Positions 46,463 through 57,269 of a stretch of DNA of 64,000 nucleotides are shown here, one piece after another. A program made the position numbers and the translations under genes. This DNA comes from Ignavibacteria bacterium (lineage in GTDB: Bacteria > Bacteroidota > Ignavibacteria > Ignavibacteriales > Ignavibacteriaceae). The number at the start of each line of letters is the position of its first letter. Position 1 is the first letter of the stretch. A model generated the notes under the pieces. That model saw nothing but the letters and a program-made list of their open reading frames with translations. It ran no database searches and was not told the DNA's origin. Location of the stretch: NCBI GenBank assembly GCA_021286645.1, contig JAJTBZ010000042.1, positions 1 to 64,000 of the forward strand, written 5' to 3'.

Positions 46463-49132
46463 ATGAAACGCAGCTATTTCAAAAATTCTTTTCTTCCTTT
46501 CACTCTTTTCCTTTTTTCTCTTATTGGTATGTTCTTGTTTGTAATATTGGAACATGAGCCGCGACAGGGCGCTGAATCTGAAGAGCCATTGGAAGAAACA
46601 ATGGGTGGAAGGGACAACCCTGAAGCCGCGATGGAGTATCGATATGCAATGCTTGCCGGACCTACCGGTGAACTTGATCCAATGGCAAGAATGAAGGCTA
46701 TTTCATTTGCTGAGGCAAATAATCTCGCCCGAACGGAAAAAACAGGAACTGATTTAACCTGGCAGCCGGTTGGACCAGGAAATATAGGCGGTAGAATACG
46801 TTCCATTATCATTAATCCGGATAATACAAACCAATTACTCATAGGAGCCGTGTCAGGAGGAGTATGGAAAAGTACGAATAAAGGCGTTACCTGGTTACCT
46901 AAACTCGATAATGGTCCTTTCCCTTCTATTGGTTCAATGGTAATTGACCCCAATGCGCATAGTACAGTTTATGCAGGTACGGGTGAGGGGTGGCGCAATG
47001 CAGATGCTATTTACGGCGGTGGAATTTACAAGTCAACCGATTTCGGCGAAACCTGGAATATTCTTACTTCCACTACAGGCACCTGGGATTTTAAAAACGT
47101 TCTAAAAATAGTAGTAGATGCGAATAGTAACATATATGCCATAACAAGAGCTTCCAATAAAAAACATGGTGTGGGTTCGTATCTGACCAATGGCGGCCTT
47201 TTCCGTTCGACCAATGGGGGAGATTCCTGGACGAAAATCAATCCTTCAACTTCTACGGATAACTATTACAATCCCAATGATCTGCTTGTCCTTGCACCCG
47301 GCGTGCTGTTATTCACTACGGGACCTGTAACCAATCCCGGAAGTATGTATAAATCAACTGACGACGGCGTCACATGGAAAAAGATAACTACAGGACTGCC
47401 TACAGCTAATTATGATCGTATTGCTATGGCAAAGGATCCATCAAATGCTAATAGACTATTTGCAGTTTTTGGTTCTTCTAATACTGCATCTCCATATTTC
47501 GGTTTGGAAAACATCTATAAATCGACTGATGCCGGTGAAAGCTGGACTGCGGTTACCCGGCCCCCGAACTTAGCCTCAACAAGTAATTTATCGTATTTGA
47601 GTGCTCAGGAATGGTATGATAACGTGATTGCGATAGATCCGTTTAATTCCAACAGGATCGTTGTCGGCGGTGTGGACCTGGTTGCTAGTACTGATGGCGG
47701 AACTACATGGAGCCAGTTGACATATTGGCATCTTTATTACGGCAGCCCGTTTGTTCATGCTGATCATCATGCACTGGTCTTTGATCCGGTTACTTCCGGT
47801 ATTTTATACTCGGGCAATGATGGAGGAATTTATCGTACTACTAATTCAGGAAGTACCTGGACTGCATTAAATAACGGTTTGGCGATCACTCAGTTTTACG
47901 GCGGTGCTGTTTCGAAAACCGGTACGATGTATACGGGGGGAACTCAGGATAATGGGCATTTGAAATATGGGGGAAGCGGCACTACATGGGTAACAGTAAA
48001 TGGAGGAGATGGTGGTTACGCCGCGATAGATCAAAGCAACTCCAATGTTGGATATGGTGAATACGTGTATTTGCAAATGGGAAAAACCACCGATGGCGGC
48101 ACTTCCTTCGAAAGCTGCACTACGGGATTAACCGATGCCGGTTCATCTACATTATGTTTGTTTATATCTCCTTTTGCTATTAATACGGTTAATGCCAATA
48201 TTCTTATCGCGGGTTCAGATAAGATCTGGCTGACTACAGATGCTGCTAAAACCTGGAACCCGATGTGTTCTACGTTGGTGACAGGTAAACTGGTCAGCGC
48301 GGTTGCAATTCAGAGCTCCGGTAGTAATTATCTTGCATTTGCCGGAATAACCGGCGGGCAGATATTTAAATGTTCAGGGTTGAACCCAACCCTAGGGCAG
48401 GCAAATGTATGGGTAAATATTTCTCCCGCGAATAATAATGGGGCTTATGTCCGGCGTGTAGTTATTGACCCTGCCGATACAAATATTATTTATGCCTGCT
48501 ACGGTGGGTATAATAACTCAGCAATTCAGAAACACGTATGGCGTTCAACCAATCAGGGCAGCTCATGGGCTGATATATCAGGAAACTTGCCAGACGTCCC
48601 CGTCCATTCACTAATTGTTAACCCGACAAACAGACAGAATCTTTTTGTAAGTACTGAGACAGGTATTTTCCAAACAACCGATTTAGGTACTACCTGGGTT
48701 TTGGCTACGACCGGTATGCCTAAATATGCTCCTGTTGACGAAATTGTATTGCAATCGGGTACTAATAAATTATTTGCATTTACTCACGGTCGAAGTGTGT
48801 TTCAGGCAGATATGCCCGTGAGTGTTAAACAAGGAACCGGAACCACGGCAAAAGACTACCGCTTAATGCAAAACTACCCGAATCCGTTTAATCCTTCAAC
48901 AACCATTAGTTATTTCCTCGCATCGGCAGGCAATACCAGCCTGATACTATATGATATCCGTGGTAAGCAGGTAGCAAGCCTCGTAAATTGTTTTCAACAG
49001 GCAGGCAGTCATGAAGTCAGATTCGATTTCCGTAATGTTGCTGCAGGAAAAGGATTCCCAAGCGGTGTATATATTTATGAATTAAAATCAGGGAATTACC
49101 GCGAATCGAAAAAAATGAATTTGATTAAGTAA
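46463..49132 (+). CDS. Secreted BNR/sialidase-like beta-propeller protein with T9SS sorting domain
   Basis: This 889-residue protein has an N-terminal membrane or signal segment (FLPFTLFLFSLIGMFLFVI). Many propeller blades of BNR/VPS10 type follow (VWKSTNKGVTW, IYKSTDFGETW, MYKSTDDGVTW, VASTDGGTTWSQL, VWRSTNQGSSW). The C-terminal type IX sorting domain begins with YRLMQNYPNPFNPSTTI and ends ESKKMNLIK. Such proteins are exported by type IX secretion and anchored or released at the surface; the cargo role could be adhesion or glycan binding. No catalytic Asp box set is claimed. ATG 46463 has GGAG 9 bases upstream. Confidence 0.88.
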   Translation: MKRSYFKNSFLPFTLFLFSLIGMFLFVILEHEPRQGAESEEPLEETMGGRDNPEAAMEYRYAMLAGPTGELDPMARMKAISFAEANNLARTEKTGTDLTWQPVGPGNIGGRIRSIIINPDNTNQLLIGAVSGGVWKSTNKGVTWLPKLDNGPFPSIGSMVIDPNAHSTVYAGTGEGWRNADAIYGGGIYKSTDFGETWNILTSTTGTWDFKNVLKIVVDANSNIYAITRASNKKHGVGSYLTNGGLFRSTNGGDSWTKINPSTSTDNYYNPNDLLVLAPGVLLFTTGPVTNPGSMYKSTDDGVTWKKITTGLPTANYDRIAMAKDPSNANRLFAVFGSSNTASPYFGLENIYKSTDAGESWTAVTRPPNLASTSNLSYLSAQEWYDNVIAIDPFNSNRIVVGGVDLVASTDGGTTWSQLTYWHLYYGSPFVHADHHALVFDPVTSGILYSGNDGGIYRTTNSGSTWTALNNGLAITQFYGGAVSKTGTMYTGGTQDNGHLKYGGSGTTWVTVNGGDGGYAAIDQSNSNVGYGEYVYLQMGKTTDGGTSFESCTTGLTDAGSSTLCLFISPFAINTVNANILIAGSDKIWLTTDAAKTWNPMCSTLVTGKLVSAVAIQSSGSNYLAFAGITGGQIFKCSGLNPTLGQANVWVNISPANNNGAYVRRVVIDPADTNIIYACYGGYNNSAIQKHVWRSTNQGSSWADISGNLPDVPVHSLIVNPTNRQNLFVSTETGIFQTTDLGTTWVLATTGMPKYAPVDEIVLQSGTNKLFAFTHGRSVFQADMPVSVKQGTGTTAKDYRLMQNYPNPFNPSTTISYFLASAGNTSLILYDIRGKQVASLVNCFQQAGSHEVRFDFRNVAAGKGFPSGVYIYELKSGNYRESKKMNLIK

Positions 49133-49190: not shown

Positions 49191-52127
49191 TTAATAATTA
49201 TCCGGCCTTCTGCTACTGATGTAATTATATGAATTATTATCCACAATTATCATATCGAGAAAATCTACGCTCCCATCACCATTAACATCTGTCGAAAGGT
49301 ATCCGGCAGCATAGTTATATGAATCATTATCAAGAATGCACATGTCGGTAAAATCTATTGATCCATCCTGGTTTACATCGCCACTGTAAATGCAATATAC
49401 AGTATTGTGAATTATTAGATTGCTCCCATAAGCTTTTGATACGGAACTCGAAAAGTCATAACTCTGGTACCCGTCTTTCAAATATGAATTTCCTGAAATC
49501 TTACTCCATGTTTCAAGAATATTTCTTCCGCGAATTACCAGGTAATATGTACCCGAGGGTGCGATTCCAAAGATTCCCATTGCGGTAAAAGTAGCAGAGT
49601 CTAATACAGCGGTACATGAATCTACCAGAGAATAAGGCGCTGTTGTATTGGCAAGATACAACTTGAATGTATCCCGTATTGATAACGTCTTTGTCCCAAT
49701 ATCGTAATAACCTTCAGGTATAAATTTTACAAGGTAATTGCCACCATTGGAAAGGTATTTAAGGCTTTTCCCGATGATCATTTGGAAAGCGGAATCATTT
49801 GCAGTCGTTTCCAGAGGGAAACCCAGGTAGATTAGCCTACCCGTTTTCGCTGAAGTACCAAATTTTCCGGTATATGCAATTCCGGCACCTTTGGAATTGT
49901 CGTACTTAAGGCATGCTACAGCCCCTCCGGAAGCATTTATCTCATCAGGTGTAGGTACTGCATAGGTTTGCCCAAAATTCAGCGTACACCCGTCAAATAT
50001 TCCACCTGTTACCCCTGAGGCAGTAAGTGAGGCCGCATCATCATTCATGTAAACTGCCTTCAAATAGTTCGTGTAAAACTGTTTATCCGAAGTGCTTCCT
50101 TTTTCATATAAATCATAACCTATCTCGCTGCCAGAAACAAATAATGAACCGCCATTTTCCAGATATTGCTTAACCAAAACCTGTTCCTTATCCGAGAATG
50201 TGGCATTTGCAGTACTTTCATCACCTAAAAGCCATATCACCGCGTCATATTGTAAAAGATTAATACCCGTGAGTAACTCCGAATTTCGAACGGAATCAAA
50301 TCGCTTCTTCCATGCTTTAAGGGCTTTCATATACATAACCGGGCCTTCATTGCTAGGTCCTCTCCAGTTACCCGTTAATCGGGTAAATCCATCAACAAGC
50401 AGGATTTTTTTTGGAGATGAATATTGCGAATAACTCAAAACGTTTGACCAAAAACTTTCTGAATAAGTTGGCGCGTCGTTTTTTACCGAACTTATTCTGT
50501 AGGCTGCAGCACTATCGGTAAGCGGGATATCGATAGTTAAATTCTTTAATGTAGTTTCGTTCTTCAACAATGCCCAGTTAGTTCCGTCAGTTGATTTATA
50601 CAAACGAAAACCTTTAAGACCGGAAGTATCACATGTCCAATTTAATCGTATGATATTGCCGGGTTGAATGAGTACTCGCTGCATAACAGGAATTACTCCG
50701 TTATAGCCGGTTGACATGTTCTTAAAAACATACGGTGCATATATTGTTAAATCGGAAAGGGCATAGGTCCAATATGAAACGCCCCAATCTCTGCCGGAAG
50801 ATTCTACTACCTTCACCGCCCCCGTGCTTGTTCGTTCAACAAACATTCTCACATGACCGTCACGCAATACCGCGTCTGCAGGGCGCAATGAATCCCATGA
50901 AGCCAACAGTTTACATGTATCGGGTAAATCAGCGGTAACTATATGAGAACTTAGGCCCCAACATTTACTCAGGAAACCTGAACAATCAACTCCCACGGCA
51001 TAACTTGAAGAAGAATTGCAATCGATATCACCGGCGTATTTACTGGAACTGAGGCCCGCATCAAATGTTGATAATGTCATAAACCCTCCCCATTTATAGG
51101 GGATTTCGGCATTGGCGCCTACAACTAACCGAGGCGGAGTCTGTATAGTATCCCCATCAGCAGCTCGTACTTTTGAAGGGGCCAGATTCGATGCTGTACA
51201 TGTGTATCGGTGATTTACATATGTTTCCCCGGTTCGAAGAGCGGTAGCCCGATCGGCTACGGCAGAAATGCCTTTATCATAAGCTGAACGTTTTTCGGGC
51301 TGTACTGGTAAAAAATTATAATGAAATGGTTTTTCAAATTCTTCAGGTAATTTTTCAATGGACCCGGATTTGATTTTTGCAGTTTCCCATTTAATTATCT
51401 TCGTAGATTCGTTGTCACTAAGGAATTGGTAAATATTTCCTTCTGCATCAACTTCAAATTCTTTAATTATGGCAATATATTTTTGGAGTGGAACGGCAAT
51501 TTTCTTTTTGATTTGGCCCTCAGGTGAGAATATGATAATACTTCTCGAAACTTCCATCGGCACTTGACGTGTTATCTCCTCAATAATCAGGTAAATATTA
51601 TTTTCTGAATCATTCCCGATAAAATCGGCATAACCTAAATTACCCTTGAAAGATACAGTATAAGACAGGGCAGTATTAAAAGAAGAAGTATTGACCGTCA
51701 ACAGGGACGAGTTTTCTCTTCGCACTGATAGGATCGTGCCATTTCGGAATTGGTATTTACCATCCTCCAACCATTCAACAGGTTCTCTATTCTTTGCAGA
51801 ATACCGTGAGGGTTGTACCAAATTCTGATTGCGGGTATAGGTATATGAATCGCGTTGTGAGGGGTTATTATCGCTCATATTTTTATTCTCAATGAGTGAA
51901 AAATTCCCATCACGATAAGAATAAATTTCTTTTTTATCGTGCATCAGTAGCTGCAGGGAAGAATCTGTTACACTAAATCCCGCGATACCGTAAACACCGC
52001 TATTATCAGAGCGCAATCTGATAGGGAGCCGTGAATGCGGCAGTTTATATACAATTGTATAAGGTACTTGTCCGGAAAGTAGCATTGTATAGCCGAATAA
52101 AATAATAAAGAGGAATTTTTTTTTCAT
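49191..52127 (-). CDS. Large secreted protein: NlpC/P60-like domain, FnIII-like domain, amidotransferase-like domain, dockerin repeats
   Basis: The 978-residue protein has a signal peptide (FLFIILFGYTMLLSGQ) and a beta-rich N-terminal region. An NlpC/P60-like papain-fold domain follows at about 325-465, with VGVDCSGFLSKCWG giving a putative nucleophile Cys and DGHVRMFV a putative His. A fibronectin-like segment comes next (about 490-575), then a glutamine-amidotransferase-like fold (LLVDGFTRLTGNW, VKQYLENGGSLFVSGSEIGYDL). Two dockerin-type calcium loops close it (DVNQDGSIDFTD and DVNGDGSVDFLD). It is probably a cell-wall or surface hydrolase attached through dockerin. The cohesin partner is not in the window. 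It converges on the T9SS propeller gene. Confidence 0.82.
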   Translation of the reverse strand: MKKKFLFIILFGYTMLLSGQVPYTIVYKLPHSRLPIRLRSDNSGVYGIAGFSVTDSSLQLLMHDKKEIYSYRDGNFSLIENKNMSDNNPSQRDSYTYTRNQNLVQPSRYSAKNREPVEWLEDGKYQFRNGTILSVRRENSSLLTVNTSSFNTALSYTVSFKGNLGYADFIGNDSENNIYLIIEEITRQVPMEVSRSIIIFSPEGQIKKKIAVPLQKYIAIIKEFEVDAEGNIYQFLSDNESTKIIKWETAKIKSGSIEKLPEEFEKPFHYNFLPVQPEKRSAYDKGISAVADRATALRTGETYVNHRYTCTASNLAPSKVRAADGDTIQTPPRLVVGANAEIPYKWGGFMTLSTFDAGLSSSKYAGDIDCNSSSSYAVGVDCSGFLSKCWGLSSHIVTADLPDTCKLLASWDSLRPADAVLRDGHVRMFVERTSTGAVKVVESSGRDWGVSYWTYALSDLTIYAPYVFKNMSTGYNGVIPVMQRVLIQPGNIIRLNWTCDTSGLKGFRLYKSTDGTNWALLKNETTLKNLTIDIPLTDSAAAYRISSVKNDAPTYSESFWSNVLSYSQYSSPKKILLVDGFTRLTGNWRGPSNEGPVMYMKALKAWKKRFDSVRNSELLTGINLLQYDAVIWLLGDESTANATFSDKEQVLVKQYLENGGSLFVSGSEIGYDLYEKGSTSDKQFYTNYLKAVYMNDDAASLTASGVTGGIFDGCTLNFGQTYAVPTPDEINASGGAVACLKYDNSKGAGIAYTGKFGTSAKTGRLIYLGFPLETTANDSAFQMIIGKSLKYLSNGGNYLVKFIPEGYYDIGTKTLSIRDTFKLYLANTTAPYSLVDSCTAVLDSATFTAMGIFGIAPSGTYYLVIRGRNILETWSKISGNSYLKDGYQSYDFSSSVSKAYGSNLIIHNTVYCIYSGDVNQDGSIDFTDMCILDNDSYNYAAGYLSTDVNGDGSVDFLDMIIVDNNSYNYISSRRPDNY

Positions 52128-52275: not shown

Positions 52276-54168
52276 TTACGATTTCTTTAGGGAGACAAAA
52301 AATGTACTGCCCTTGCCGTGCTCGCTCTCAAGCCAAATTTTTCCGCGCATTCTTTCAACAAACCGTTTCGTAATGCTTAGCCCGAGCCCGCTGCCTTCAA
52401 ATCTTCTTCCCAACCCTTCACTGACTTGTCTAAATTCTTCAAACACTACGGAAAAATCTTCTTTCTTAATACCGATACCGGTATCCGCGACCGAGATCAG
52501 AATTTCTTCATCACCATGCTCGGAAAGTGTTATTGATACACTCCCTTTCTGTGTATATTTAACCGCGTTATCCAGTAGCTGCCCTAATACTTGTTTAAGC
52601 ATTCTATACTCGCCGGAAATAAGAGTTGAAAGCGGGAGGTTATTATTGTAATGAAATGCAATATTTTTTTTATTTGCAGCTTCCTGGTACAACGGAACAA
52701 TAAGTTCACATAATTCCTGTATCGAAAATGAAGTTAACTCAAAATCTTCATTCTCCGATTCCAGGGTGGTGAGATCTAATATCAGATTGATTGTTTCGGT
52801 TAATCTATTCGCGCTGGTATTAATAATATTCGCGAGTTCTTTAATTTCTTTTGTTTCTACCATCTCGCGGACAATTTCAGAATACCCCAGAATGCTAATC
52901 AAAGGTGTGCGCAGTTCATGACTAATATTGGCAAGGAAGTTACTCTTCAATCGATTCATGGATTCCGATTCATCCTTCGCGCGTTTGAGCTCCTGATGAA
53001 TTGCCTTGCGCTCACTGATATCAGTGAGGATACCAACCGAACCAATCAATTCTCCTTCTGCATTATACCAGGGGAAAGAGTGATCTTCAATCCACTTCAA
53101 CTCTGAATGCTTGGTTTGTATCAGGTACTCTGCCCGGTAATCTCCCTTAGTGCCGTATACTTTTTTTGCATTGAAATTATCATCTGTTGATTCCTGATGC
53201 TCGGGCACTTCAACTTGCAGGATAATGGAAGAAAGATGAATTTGATTAATTTCACTTTCTGTATAGCCCGTTAGCTTTACAATGGCAGGGTTCAGATATT
53301 CAAATCGGGTACTCAGATGGCTGTATTTATATAAAACATCACCGGTGGCTTCCACCATAAACCGGAGTTGTTCTTCATTTTCTATCATCTGTTCGTAAAC
53401 AATCTTCCTGGTGGTAATGTCTTCCTTCAGGGCGATGTAATTAATGATTTTGCCTTCTTCGTTCCGGATAACCGATATGGAAGCCATTTCCCAAAACAAC
53501 TCCCCATTTTTTCGCTTATTATGAAGCTCACCGCGCCATGTCTTACCCGCGGTAATTACTTTCCATAGATGCTGGTATTTTTCCGGACTCATCTCACCCG
53601 ATTTTAAAATACGAGGGTTTTGTCCCAACACTTCTACCATAGTATAACCGGTTGCTCTCTCGAATTGAGGGTTTACATACTCGATATTACCAAGGGTATC
53701 CGTAATAACTATCGAAAGAGGAATTTGTTCAAGAATTCTTTTCAGCCTGAAATTTTCAAAACTTGAATTTAACTGTTCTGTGATATCTTCAAAATGGAGA
53801 AATGTAACATTGATATGCTGCCGATGAGAAAATGTTGCCATTTTTGTCTGCAGTGCGTGAGTTGTTCCGCCCGTATTTACAAAATTGTAGCTCCGTATTT
53901 CATTACTGTTGCCGCAGCTGGTTATAAATAATTCTACATCCGATTCAGCCAGATAGCCTGTTATTGAATGATAGAGCAGATTTTCACGTGTTTCACCGAT
54001 GATTTCCAGAAATGCATCGGTGCACTGAATGACTTCAAAAGTACTGTTAATTAGTGCTGCAGGCGTGTTAAAACTATTCGCCATAGTGAAGTAAAAATTA
54101 ACAGATAACTCAAATTCATCTTCACTCAGTGAATCAAGATTATTTAAAAATTCATTTGATAGATGCAT
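52276..54168 (-). CDS. Multi-PAS sensor histidine kinase
   Basis: This 630-residue soluble kinase has PAS domains at about 25-115, 145-265 (VITDTLGNIEYVNPQFERATGYTMVEVLGQNPRIL) and 270-390. A HisKA helix carries the phospho-acceptor His (NISHELRTPLISILGYSEI), and an HATPase_c domain follows (LLDNAVKYTQKG, VADTGIGIKKEDF, FEGSGLGLSITKRFVERM). No transmembrane segment is seen, so it senses a cytoplasmic signal, perhaps redox or a small ligand. No response regulator is nearby, so the partner is elsewhere. Confidence 0.95.
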   Translation of the reverse strand: MHLSNEFLNNLDSLSEDEFELSVNFYFTMANSFNTPAALINSTFEVIQCTDAFLEIIGETRENLLYHSITGYLAESDVELFITSCGNSNEIRSYNFVNTGGTTHALQTKMATFSHRQHINVTFLHFEDITEQLNSSFENFRLKRILEQIPLSIVITDTLGNIEYVNPQFERATGYTMVEVLGQNPRILKSGEMSPEKYQHLWKVITAGKTWRGELHNKRKNGELFWEMASISVIRNEEGKIINYIALKEDITTRKIVYEQMIENEEQLRFMVEATGDVLYKYSHLSTRFEYLNPAIVKLTGYTESEINQIHLSSIILQVEVPEHQESTDDNFNAKKVYGTKGDYRAEYLIQTKHSELKWIEDHSFPWYNAEGELIGSVGILTDISERKAIHQELKRAKDESESMNRLKSNFLANISHELRTPLISILGYSEIVREMVETKEIKELANIINTSANRLTETINLILDLTTLESENEDFELTSFSIQELCELIVPLYQEAANKKNIAFHYNNNLPLSTLISGEYRMLKQVLGQLLDNAVKYTQKGSVSITLSEHGDEEILISVADTGIGIKKEDFSVVFEEFRQVSEGLGRRFEGSGLGLSITKRFVERMRGKIWLESEHGKGSTFFVSLKKS

Positions 54169-55814: not shown

Positions 55815-57269
55815 TTATTGTTTTTTCGGTAAAGTAACCGTGAAAGTGGTCCCGATTCCAAGCTGACTTTCTACTTTTATGTCTCCCTTATGCAAATTTA
55901 CAAATTCTTTTACAAGCACCAGTCCAAGTCCGGTACCCTTTTCGTTATTTGTTCCGGGTGTGGAATAATGTGAGCCAACGTGAAAGAGTTTTGCTACATC
56001 ATCAGCTTCCATTCCTATACCGGTATCCTGCACAATAATCCGTATTCCTATTTCATTCTCCAGTACTTTTATCAGTACTTTTCCACCAGGATGGGTGAAT
56101 TTAATCGCGTTTGATAGCAGGTTCCGGACAATAGTTGAAAGCATATTTTCATCGTATCTAAAATCGATATCCTTTTTTATTGCTGTTAAAAGAACAATTT
56201 GTTTTTCTTCTGCTATAGTCTTAAAGATTGCTGCTTCTTCAATTATTGTTTCCCGTAAATTATGTTGATCCGGAGCGAATTCAATACTGCCATTATGAAT
56301 TCTTGCCCATTGTAATAAATTTTGCACTAATGAAAAAACCCGCTTCTGTTCATTATACAGAATGCTGATAAAACGCAGGGTTTCATTCTGAGGCATAGTC
56401 CCAAATTCGGAATATAGAATTTCCGAAATATTAAGTAGTGTATGAAAGGGGCTTCTGAGATCATGTGCTATTATTGAAAAGAATTGATCCTTTGAATTAT
56501 TAATTTTTACAAGTTCGGCTTCATGCTTCCGTAATTGTTCTTCAAGCGATTTTATTTCAGTAATATCGTGTAGAATATGCAGGCAGCCGGTAAAGTTTCC
56601 CTGCATATCACGTAATGGATCGAGTATCACTTCAATCCATTTATCCTGCAGATGAATTATTTTTTTATCTCTTTCGGAAATATTTCTTAGATTCGCTGCG
56701 GGGCAGGGCGTAAGTGGTTTATGATCATCGTGAAAAATTTCCCAGCAATGTTTCCCCAGAATTTCGCTCTTTGGAATCTTTAGTAGTTTTTCAGTAGCAC
56801 TGTTGCAGTGCAGTATTCTATATTGTGTGCTAAATATGCAAATACTATCACTCATCGAATCGAGAATATAAATCCATTGTAACCATTGCGATAATGCAAA
56901 CTGTTTTTCATACACGCCGGCTTCAATGATATAGAATTCCTTCGAAGTGCCTTCATTTTGCTTCCAGAGTCTGCAATCATGATAGACGAGTACGTTTGTA
57001 CGGCTTTCGTCTATTGTTTGCAGTACAGATTCTTGACAAATTAATGTAGATTTTATATCAAAATTATTTAAAAGAGTCAGGATTCGGCCATGACAGAGTT
57101 GCAATTGTTGTTCCGGGGTGTTTGATGTATTTCCAATGCCCGGAAATCCACAGAGGTTGTATAACGACTCGTTTACATATTCCAATTCATTGCTGGGACT
57201 TAAAATTGCAATTCCCGGAATAACCGATTCGAATACTTGTGGAACAATGTTTCTCTCTCCGCTGTTCAT
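55815..57269 (-). CDS. PAS sensor histidine kinase
   Basis: This 484-residue kinase has two PAS-like segments (about 15-100 and 130-235, the second with WLQWIYILDSMSDSICIFS and FTGCLHILHDITEIKSLEEQL). The HisKA motif follows (FFSIIAHDLRSPFHTLLNIS), then HATPase_c (LLSNAIKFTHPGG, VQDTGIGME, GTGLGLVLVKEFVNLHKG). It is very like the catalytic part of the 41 kb hybrid kinase, so they may be paralogs. It lacks transmembrane helices and any nearby response regulator. Confidence 0.95.
   Translation of the reverse strand: MNSGERNIVPQVFESVIPGIAILSPSNELEYVNESLYNLCGFPGIGNTSNTPEQQLQLCHGRILTLLNNFDIKSTLICQESVLQTIDESRTNVLVYHDCRLWKQNEGTSKEFYIIEAGVYEKQFALSQWLQWIYILDSMSDSICIFSTQYRILHCNSATEKLLKIPKSEILGKHCWEIFHDDHKPLTPCPAANLRNISERDKKIIHLQDKWIEVILDPLRDMQGNFTGCLHILHDITEIKSLEEQLRKHEAELVKINNSKDQFFSIIAHDLRSPFHTLLNISEILYSEFGTMPQNETLRFISILYNEQKRVFSLVQNLLQWARIHNGSIEFAPDQHNLRETIIEEAAIFKTIAEEKQIVLLTAIKKDIDFRYDENMLSTIVRNLLSNAIKFTHPGGKVLIKVLENEIGIRIIVQDTGIGMEADDVAKLFHVGSHYSTPGTNNEKGTGLGLVLVKEFVNLHKGDIKVESQLGIGTTFTVTLPKKQ

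Follow-up and report, generated by a model that had tools for sequence, protein, structure and literature searches.

The last ~180 amino acids (aa) of a secreted multidomain protein, encoded on the reverse strand at 49191-52127 in a 64,000-nucleotide (nt) stretch of DNA from an Ignavibacteria bacterium (GenBank assembly GCA_021286645.1, contig JAJTBZ010000042.1, positions 1 to 64,000; this whole stretch is called the window), are predicted to fold as an X-module-dockerin (XDoc) dyad. In sequences and predicted structures the tail is marked by this fold, by its C-terminal position, by a frequent terminal proline and by exchange with the type A sorting domain of the type IX secretion system (T9SS-A). 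We propose that it is a C-terminal surface-localisation tail which stands in for the T9SS-A domain and is held by a receptor, a reading to which we give a probability of about 0.5. The tail looks like an undescribed alternative tag for the surface placement of proteins, and no paper describing it was found in the open-licence literature covered (subscription journals lay mostly outside the search).

The open reading frame (ORF) is real as initially annotated, with 978 aa and an ATG start. Dockerin_1 is the sole Pfam family above cut-off in the protein (best stretch residues 916-964); the domains of the body were read from homologues plus an AlphaFold model (pLDDT 81.6, pTM 0.84; 31 aligned sequences). 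All structures modelled here are predictions. The gene is organized as follows:

49191-52127 (-): whole gene, secreted multidomain protein with an XDoc-like C-terminal tail; 978 aa, ATG start
52068-52127 (-): putative Sec signal peptide, ~aa 1-20, from the sequence (K-rich start, hydrophobic core, LLSGQ)
51288-52067 (-): N-terminal beta-rich region, ~aa 21-280, from AlphaFold secondary structure, partly of low confidence
50718-51260 (-): NlpC/P60-like papain-type domain, ~aa 290-470, from homologue alignment and model
50433-50705 (-): FN3-like domain, ~aa 475-565, from secondary structure and many FN3 Foldseek matches; range approximate, as inferred
49743-50414 (-): ThuA/class I glutamine-amidotransferase-like domain, ~aa 572-795, elbow Cys absent, from fold and alignment
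49389-49733 (-): X-module-like beta-sandwich, first half of the tail, ~aa 799-913, from alignment, model and fold matches
49194-49388 (-): dockerin half of the tail, ~aa 914-978, two EF-hand-type loops, from Pfam and conserved ligands

Fold and fixed end of the tail

The dockerin that the initial annotation had seen at the end of the protein was confirmed. PF00404 scores 24.4 bits on the whole protein and 28.4 bits on the tail alone (cut-off 22.9), and both loops have conserved calcium ligands. Among 104 aligned tails of the family, the first loop keeps Asp1 in 103 and Asp12 in all 104, while the first and last Asp of the second loop are each present in 104; 72 of these tails match PF00404 at E ≤ 0.01. 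The conserved unit is larger than the dockerin alone. When aligned, three Pfam dockerins of the same genome share ~170 aa, and the tail of ~180 aa consists of a beta-sandwich, missing from the earlier description, followed by the dockerin.

The 104 tails (alignment A4) were used for AlphaFold modelling of the 180 residues, which gave a pLDDT of 97.1 and a pTM of 0.91. Searched against the PDB with Foldseek, this model has as its five best matches type II XDoc chains, or chains from cellulosomes that include one (E 3.8e-4 to 1.6e-3). A second aligner, re-scoring Foldseek's own list, placed eight XDoc entries at Z 10.8-12.2 over 140-147 residues across both halves, the best at Z 12.2 with a root mean square deviation of 3.6 over 143 residues, and the next row at Z 6.0. 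As modelled, the tail thus has the fold of an XDoc dyad. No NCBIfam model covers or names it. The T9SS-A families TIGR04183 and PF18962 have no match in the window protein and none listed for the 104 tails, and the same holds for the T9SS type B families PF13585 and TIGR04131. No NCBIfam match to a T9SS C-terminal domain (CTD) was obtained on the tails, among models that included none named cl41395 (T9SS type C).

The end of the tail is largely fixed. Among 151 distinct tails, 105 stop within three residues of the stop codon. Pro is the last residue of 112 of 149 strong XDoc tails. It closes 3 of 279 other ORFs and no T9SS-A tail among 104 (Fisher 8e-66, a statistic that ignores relatedness); 92 of those 104 end in Lys. 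Conservation in the dockerin half extends beyond the calcium ligands and, counting from the first loop Asp, includes Tyr-2 (92/104), Gln4 (90/104), Asn18 (93/104), Asn48 (93/100), Asn49 (101/104) and Pro59 (94/94). It spans tails on proteins with different bodies, which fits one common partner or, equally, a structural role. By a crude rule, a signal-peptide-like start was found on 102 of 109 XDoc proteins and on 88 of 201 other ORFs.

Some variants of the tail were noticed. In one XDoc protein of the window's genome (L020:1922-2500 (-), contig C98), 22 residues follow the tail and by eye resemble the last T9SS-A motif. Judged by eye, the C-termini of ORFs in L106, L110, L111, L114, L118, L124 and L126 appear to retain one calcium loop but not the second, and nevertheless to finish in or close to a VP, LP or MP motif. 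These one-loop distant relatives occur elsewhere in the class and in genome G132 of the window's family, and are perhaps a wider family of the same tail.

Exchange with the T9SS-A tail

When 197 genomes of the class were searched with the body of the window protein (residues 1-799), 47 gave matches. This yielded 29 homologue loci in addition to that of the window; the body is followed by a T9SS-A tail or its start in all 29 and by an XDoc tail in none. Body and T9SS-A tail lie in one ORF in 27 of them, one is split by a stop with the tail after it, and one is truncated inside the T9SS-A tail. The T9SS-A tails in these loci were judged with a local hidden Markov model built from ten tails of the window's genome. 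That genome itself encodes two paralogues, both T9SS-A-tailed: one, its tail found by TIGR04183, shares 42.5% identity with the window protein over aa 1-795, the other 32.7% over a shorter part. The exchange count covers the 29 loci returned and these two paralogues, the remaining match rows of the body search being left aside. The orthologue in genome G212 (L133:1201-3891 (-)) has an in-frame TAG ahead of its T9SS-A tail.

Neighbouring genes with one body and different tails were also observed. In L024, adjacent genes are 79% identical over 312 aa up to ...DVGPDGGD, after which one carries the XDoc and the other the T9SS-A tail; the XDoc gene lies at a contig end and is without ~190 N-terminal residues of its paralogue. 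In L032, neighbouring genes with ~1.2 kb between the ORFs are 71% identical over 441 aa to the junction, where the tails diverge. The reverse situation is found for the T9SS-A-tailed propeller protein of the window, which has an XDoc-tailed relative in L033 (31% identity over 818 aa). As judged by sequence comparison, XDoc tail and T9SS-A domain are interchangeable on the same protein families. The T9SS-A domain (PF18962, TIGR04183) is like the XDoc tail in being C-terminal, in its protein families and in the junction; unlike the XDoc tail it is shorter, usually Lys-ended and of different sequence. In L071:5533-6843 (+), an XDoc tail is followed by a complete T9SS-A tail in a single ORF, and fragments upstream suggest a broken gene or an assembly fault.

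A profile search found six copies of the tail in the window's genome, each at the C-terminus of an ORF of 898-1836 aa, one of which runs off its contig. Two XDoc-tailed genes stand side by side on contig C29 (L021:1388-7581 (+)). With ~130 T9SS-A tails in the same genome, the earlier idea of two kinds of surface tail in one organism holds in spirit; its extension, that they build different surface layers, was not supported. A scan of named genomes reported 312 relatives of the tail, the best 80 of which represent 78 distinct loci in metagenome-assembled genomes (MAGs) labelled Ignavibacteria, Ignavibacteriales, Ignavibacteriae or Bacteroidetes. In a sample of the phylum, 18 of 296 genomes carry the tail at E ≤ 1e-10. 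Copies were counted in ten tail-bearing MAGs, nine of which have 45-132 and one 26, the counts being at least these values for two of the ten. Homologue counts of this kind depend on which loci the searches returned.

The surroundings of the XDoc genes were inspected for partners. A Pfam scan of 103 untailed neighbours revealed no recurrent secretion family among the best 25 of 156 matches. Many XDoc genes are accompanied, usually on the other strand, by a member of a family of ~490 aa (L083:975-2453 (-) and 36 more ORFs in loci fetched by their tails, for example L042:1283-2707, L043:6766-8238, L050:4141-5574 and L067:1688-3154). The members scanned have no Pfam or NCBIfam name and show a weak TPR likeness (E 0.004). 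In independent regions, the family occurs in 7 of 25 XDoc-centred and 3 of 39 control regions (p 0.035), a much weaker link than in the discovery loci; over all 80 regions, overlap included, the figures are 20 of 53 with XDoc and 1 of 27 without. No member was matched among ORFs of at least 150 aa in the window or in the loci L020-L023 of its genome.

Docking, sorting and other readings

If the tail acts in localisation, the signal-peptide-bearing cargo would reach the periplasm, where the folded, calcium-loaded XDoc tail would decide its location, taking the role that the T9SS-A domain has in the homologues. A single conserved receptor would bind the calcium-loaded dockerin face; this is probably a divergent protein of cohesin-like type, or another outer-membrane protein, and would itself use the T9SS for export. 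The docked receptor would then hold the cargo at the cell surface, the cargo either crossing the outer membrane together with the receptor or being read by the T9SS itself. Docking is favoured on the grounds that the tail shares its fold with a known docking module, and the protein in L071, with an XDoc followed by a T9SS-A tail, slightly favours it as well. In this scheme the receptor, the calcium dependence, secretion, the surface location and the route are what we infer.

Several results weigh against this proposal. The initial annotation had suggested that dockerin-cohesin pairing may be used and had itself named the lack of a cohesin in the genome, together with a Cys/His pair too far apart in the model, as evidence to the contrary; the cohesin search requested there found none. 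PF00963 (cohesin) has no match in the window's genome, which is 99% complete, and none in nine of the ten MAGs counted above, namely the nine with 45-132 tails. A further cohesin profile, A3, was built from the cohesins of relatives. Checked against solved structures, it retrieves 37 distinct sequences at E ≤ 1, nearly all cohesins by name and with type II included (2b59_A, 9e-4). A3 has no match in 13 of 15 genomes, the window's among them, and the two positives, G290 and G420, had both supplied sequences to it. The X half of the tail is alike in predicted fold but has no match in sequence to solved X-modules, since the 104-tail profile hits the dockerin part of solved XDoc chains only; no X60 model was searched. 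The conserved Asn and Pro residues could be structural instead of forming a contact surface. The tails also come on top of the T9SS-A system and do not replace it genome-wide, as the tail-rich genomes keep many T9SS-A tails. A loss of T9SS-A from these genomes was considered and not observed, all 15 examined retaining 112 to at least 150 matches. Finally, in loci fetched by their tails and with no selection of bodies by likeness, 37 of 129 XDoc bodies have a homologue among 41 nearby T9SS-A-tailed proteins (in 15 cases with 60% of each partner covered), and ORFs with neither tail match XDoc bodies about as often (38 of 129, 18 with 60% cover). Of the 14 untailed ORFs matched, 11 run off the fetched sequence, two are fragment-like pieces of one broken both-tailed gene and one is complete; these last three are matched by 16 of the 129 bodies. 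Since nearly all of the untailed ORFs matched are cut off or broken, bodies with neither tail are rare, not absent. The raw control figure being as high, the exchange rests mainly on the 29 loci and the neighbouring pairs.

Candidates for a receptor exist among relatives. PF00963 exceeds its cut-off in 4 of 17 genomes. Among ten PF00963 loci inspected by eye, a T9SS-A tail closes eight of the ORFs and a ninth breaks off within such a tail; the ORF from G232, which is below cut-off, has none. As most cohesin ORFs there are T9SS-A-tailed, a T9SS-anchored cohesin protein exists in some relatives. In genome G290, from the window's family, the protein encoded at L165:370-2841 (-) ends in a T9SS-A tail and contains two cohesin-like domains; four clustered XDoc tails lie ~23 kb away. 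This protein is the best candidate receptor among the relatives. A cohesin too divergent for sequence profiles may also be present.

The main rival to receptor docking is that the T9SS itself recognises the tail, through PorV- or PorM-like contacts, as an additional class of sorting signal in lieu of the type A domain, with no separate docking receptor. It accounts equally well for the missing cohesin and the C-terminal position, and the mostly fixed last residue and the same-junction exchange with T9SS-A tails agree with it. Several unrelated CTD classes are known already, types A, B and C being named in a T9SS review (PMC10202324). All 15 tail-bearing genomes examined encode SprA, as do all 18 tail-positive ones in the phylum sample, where 228 of 296 have it overall (hypergeometric 0.008). 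However, this link is confounded by ancestry, because 19 of the 20 listed among the 68 SprA-negative genomes belong to one family. The predicted fold is also that of an XDoc, whereas the T9SS CTD of mirolase reaches only Z 4.1 over 70 residues against the tail model, and a protein with both tails, as in L071, would be redundant. We consider a directly read signal less likely than docking.

A calcium-stabilised end cap or spacer that has no specific partner, on proteins that are periplasmic or exported by another route, is clearly less probable. EF-hand-type domains frequently act as stabilisers, and no partner was found. However, a passive cap would not be expected to keep residues other than the calcium ligands and a largely constant last residue, to trade places with a sorting tail, or to occur up to 132 times in a genome.

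A cellulosome-like system of the usual kind, with classical cohesins such as those of Cloacimonadota or clostridia, is very improbable and was rejected as the main reading. In its favour are the dockerin, the XDoc fold and the PF00963 cohesins of some relatives, which are mostly borne by T9SS-A-tailed ORFs, as in G290. Against it, neither PF00963 nor A3 finds a cohesin in the window's genome or in the nine tail-rich ones. Ten XDoc proteins, mostly picked as examples of exchange, were scanned with Pfam: a polysaccharide-lyase domain occurs in one, and five are of propeller type. The tail was accordingly not classed with cellulosome parts, for want of a cohesin, or with the T9SS type A and B domains, for want of a match.

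Comparison with described systems points to the same differences. In the type II XDoc of Clostridium thermocellum CipA and Acetivibrio cellulolyticus ScaA, a beta-sandwich followed by a dockerin sits at the C-terminus. The tails described here are like these modules in predicted fold over both halves and in their conserved calcium ligands. Unlike them, they have an X half with no sequence match, are spread over many proteins of a genome, commonly end in Pro before the stop, and belong to T9SS-bearing Gram-negative hosts in which no cohesin was found. In Pseudobacteroides cellulosolvens, X60-type II dockerins are reported on 92 of 212, together with 78 cohesins on 31 scaffoldins, and Met10, Ala17 and Phe20 are named as dockerin helix residues (PMC5590126). 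The likeness lies in XDoc modules on many secreted proteins of one genome; unlike in P. cellulosolvens, no cohesins were detected here and helix positions 17-19 are Asp/Asn. For Cloacimonadota, dockerin proteins and a scaffoldin of 3,755 aa with repeated cohesins and a C-terminal anchoring domain are described (PMC8542988). These likewise have dockerins on secreted proteins of a T9SS-type organism; unlike there, no cohesin scaffoldin was detected here. The Melioribacter genome paper, where it treats dockerins, says only that its cellulases are without them (PMC3534657).

Dockerins without cohesins are an old puzzle. Here it becomes testable, since neighbouring paralogues with a common body but alternative tails amount to a natural experiment on where proteins are placed. 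Tentatively, and at clearly less than even odds, XDoc tails may be a separate sorting code of T9SS bacteria, the calcium-loaded tail being read by the export machine or by an exported receptor. The plug of the cellulosome would then be a variant of a general bacterial targeting tag, or have been recruited from or into one. If the localisation reading is true, each of the nine tail-rich genomes would use a second, unrecognised C-terminal code on 45-132 of its proteins, and the receptor would be a new dockerin partner.

Cargo domains and neighbouring genes

The initial annotation had described a putative cell-wall hydrolase domain and an amidotransferase-like domain in the body. For the first, the NlpC/P60 sequence context (DCSGF, GHV, VVES) was recovered with three candidate catalytic residues, all identical in the 10 sequences covering them:

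50982-50984 (-): Cys382 (DCSGF), candidate nucleophile
50853-50855 (-): His425 (GHVR), candidate catalytic His
50802-50804 (-): Glu442 (VVES), candidate third residue

PF00877 (NlpC/P60) gave no match above cut-off in the window protein. PF00877 is found below threshold in two of five long orthologues (E 0.0099 and 0.072), and a three-sequence profile of the domain reaches lipoprotein Spr at E 0.7 only. The 50 matches listed for the 799-aa body model, filled by the FN3 and GATase part, contain no NlpC/P60 fold, which excludes nothing. The cargo is probably a cysteine hydrolase of NlpC/P60 type.

The second domain was borne out in fold as ThuA/GATase1-like (predicted model; Z 13.7 to GATase1-like 3rht_A and 11.4 to ThuA-like 1t0b_A). 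The usual elbow motif of class I amidotransferases is G-x-C-x-G. In the alignment, the window protein has:

50112-50132 (-): elbow G-S-E-I-G in the amidotransferase-like domain

The nucleophilic Cys is replaced by Glu in 27 of 29 sequences. This makes amidotransferase chemistry unlikely, and the domain is probably not an amidotransferase.

The gene faces a type IX secreted propeller protein, a feature of the earlier description that also held up (TIGR04183, 36.5 bits; cut-off 23):

46463-49132 (+): Sortilin/VPS10-type beta-propeller protein with T9SS-A tail, convergent neighbour, from Pfam and NCBIfam
48875-49117 (+): T9SS type A sorting domain of this protein, TIGR04183
49141-49170 (+): terminator-like hairpin between the convergent genes, from a hairpin scan (4 sites found, 3.4 expected)

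The stops of the two genes are 58 nt apart. Their opposite placement implies no functional tie, because they converge with a terminator-like hairpin between them; beyond this arrangement nothing was found that ties them or marks the pair as a unit. Directly upstream of the XDoc-tailed gene lies a PAS-domain histidine kinase gene (52276-54168 (-)), and a second similar ORF, its PAS and kinase parts judged by eye, follows after two more genes (55815-57269 (-)).

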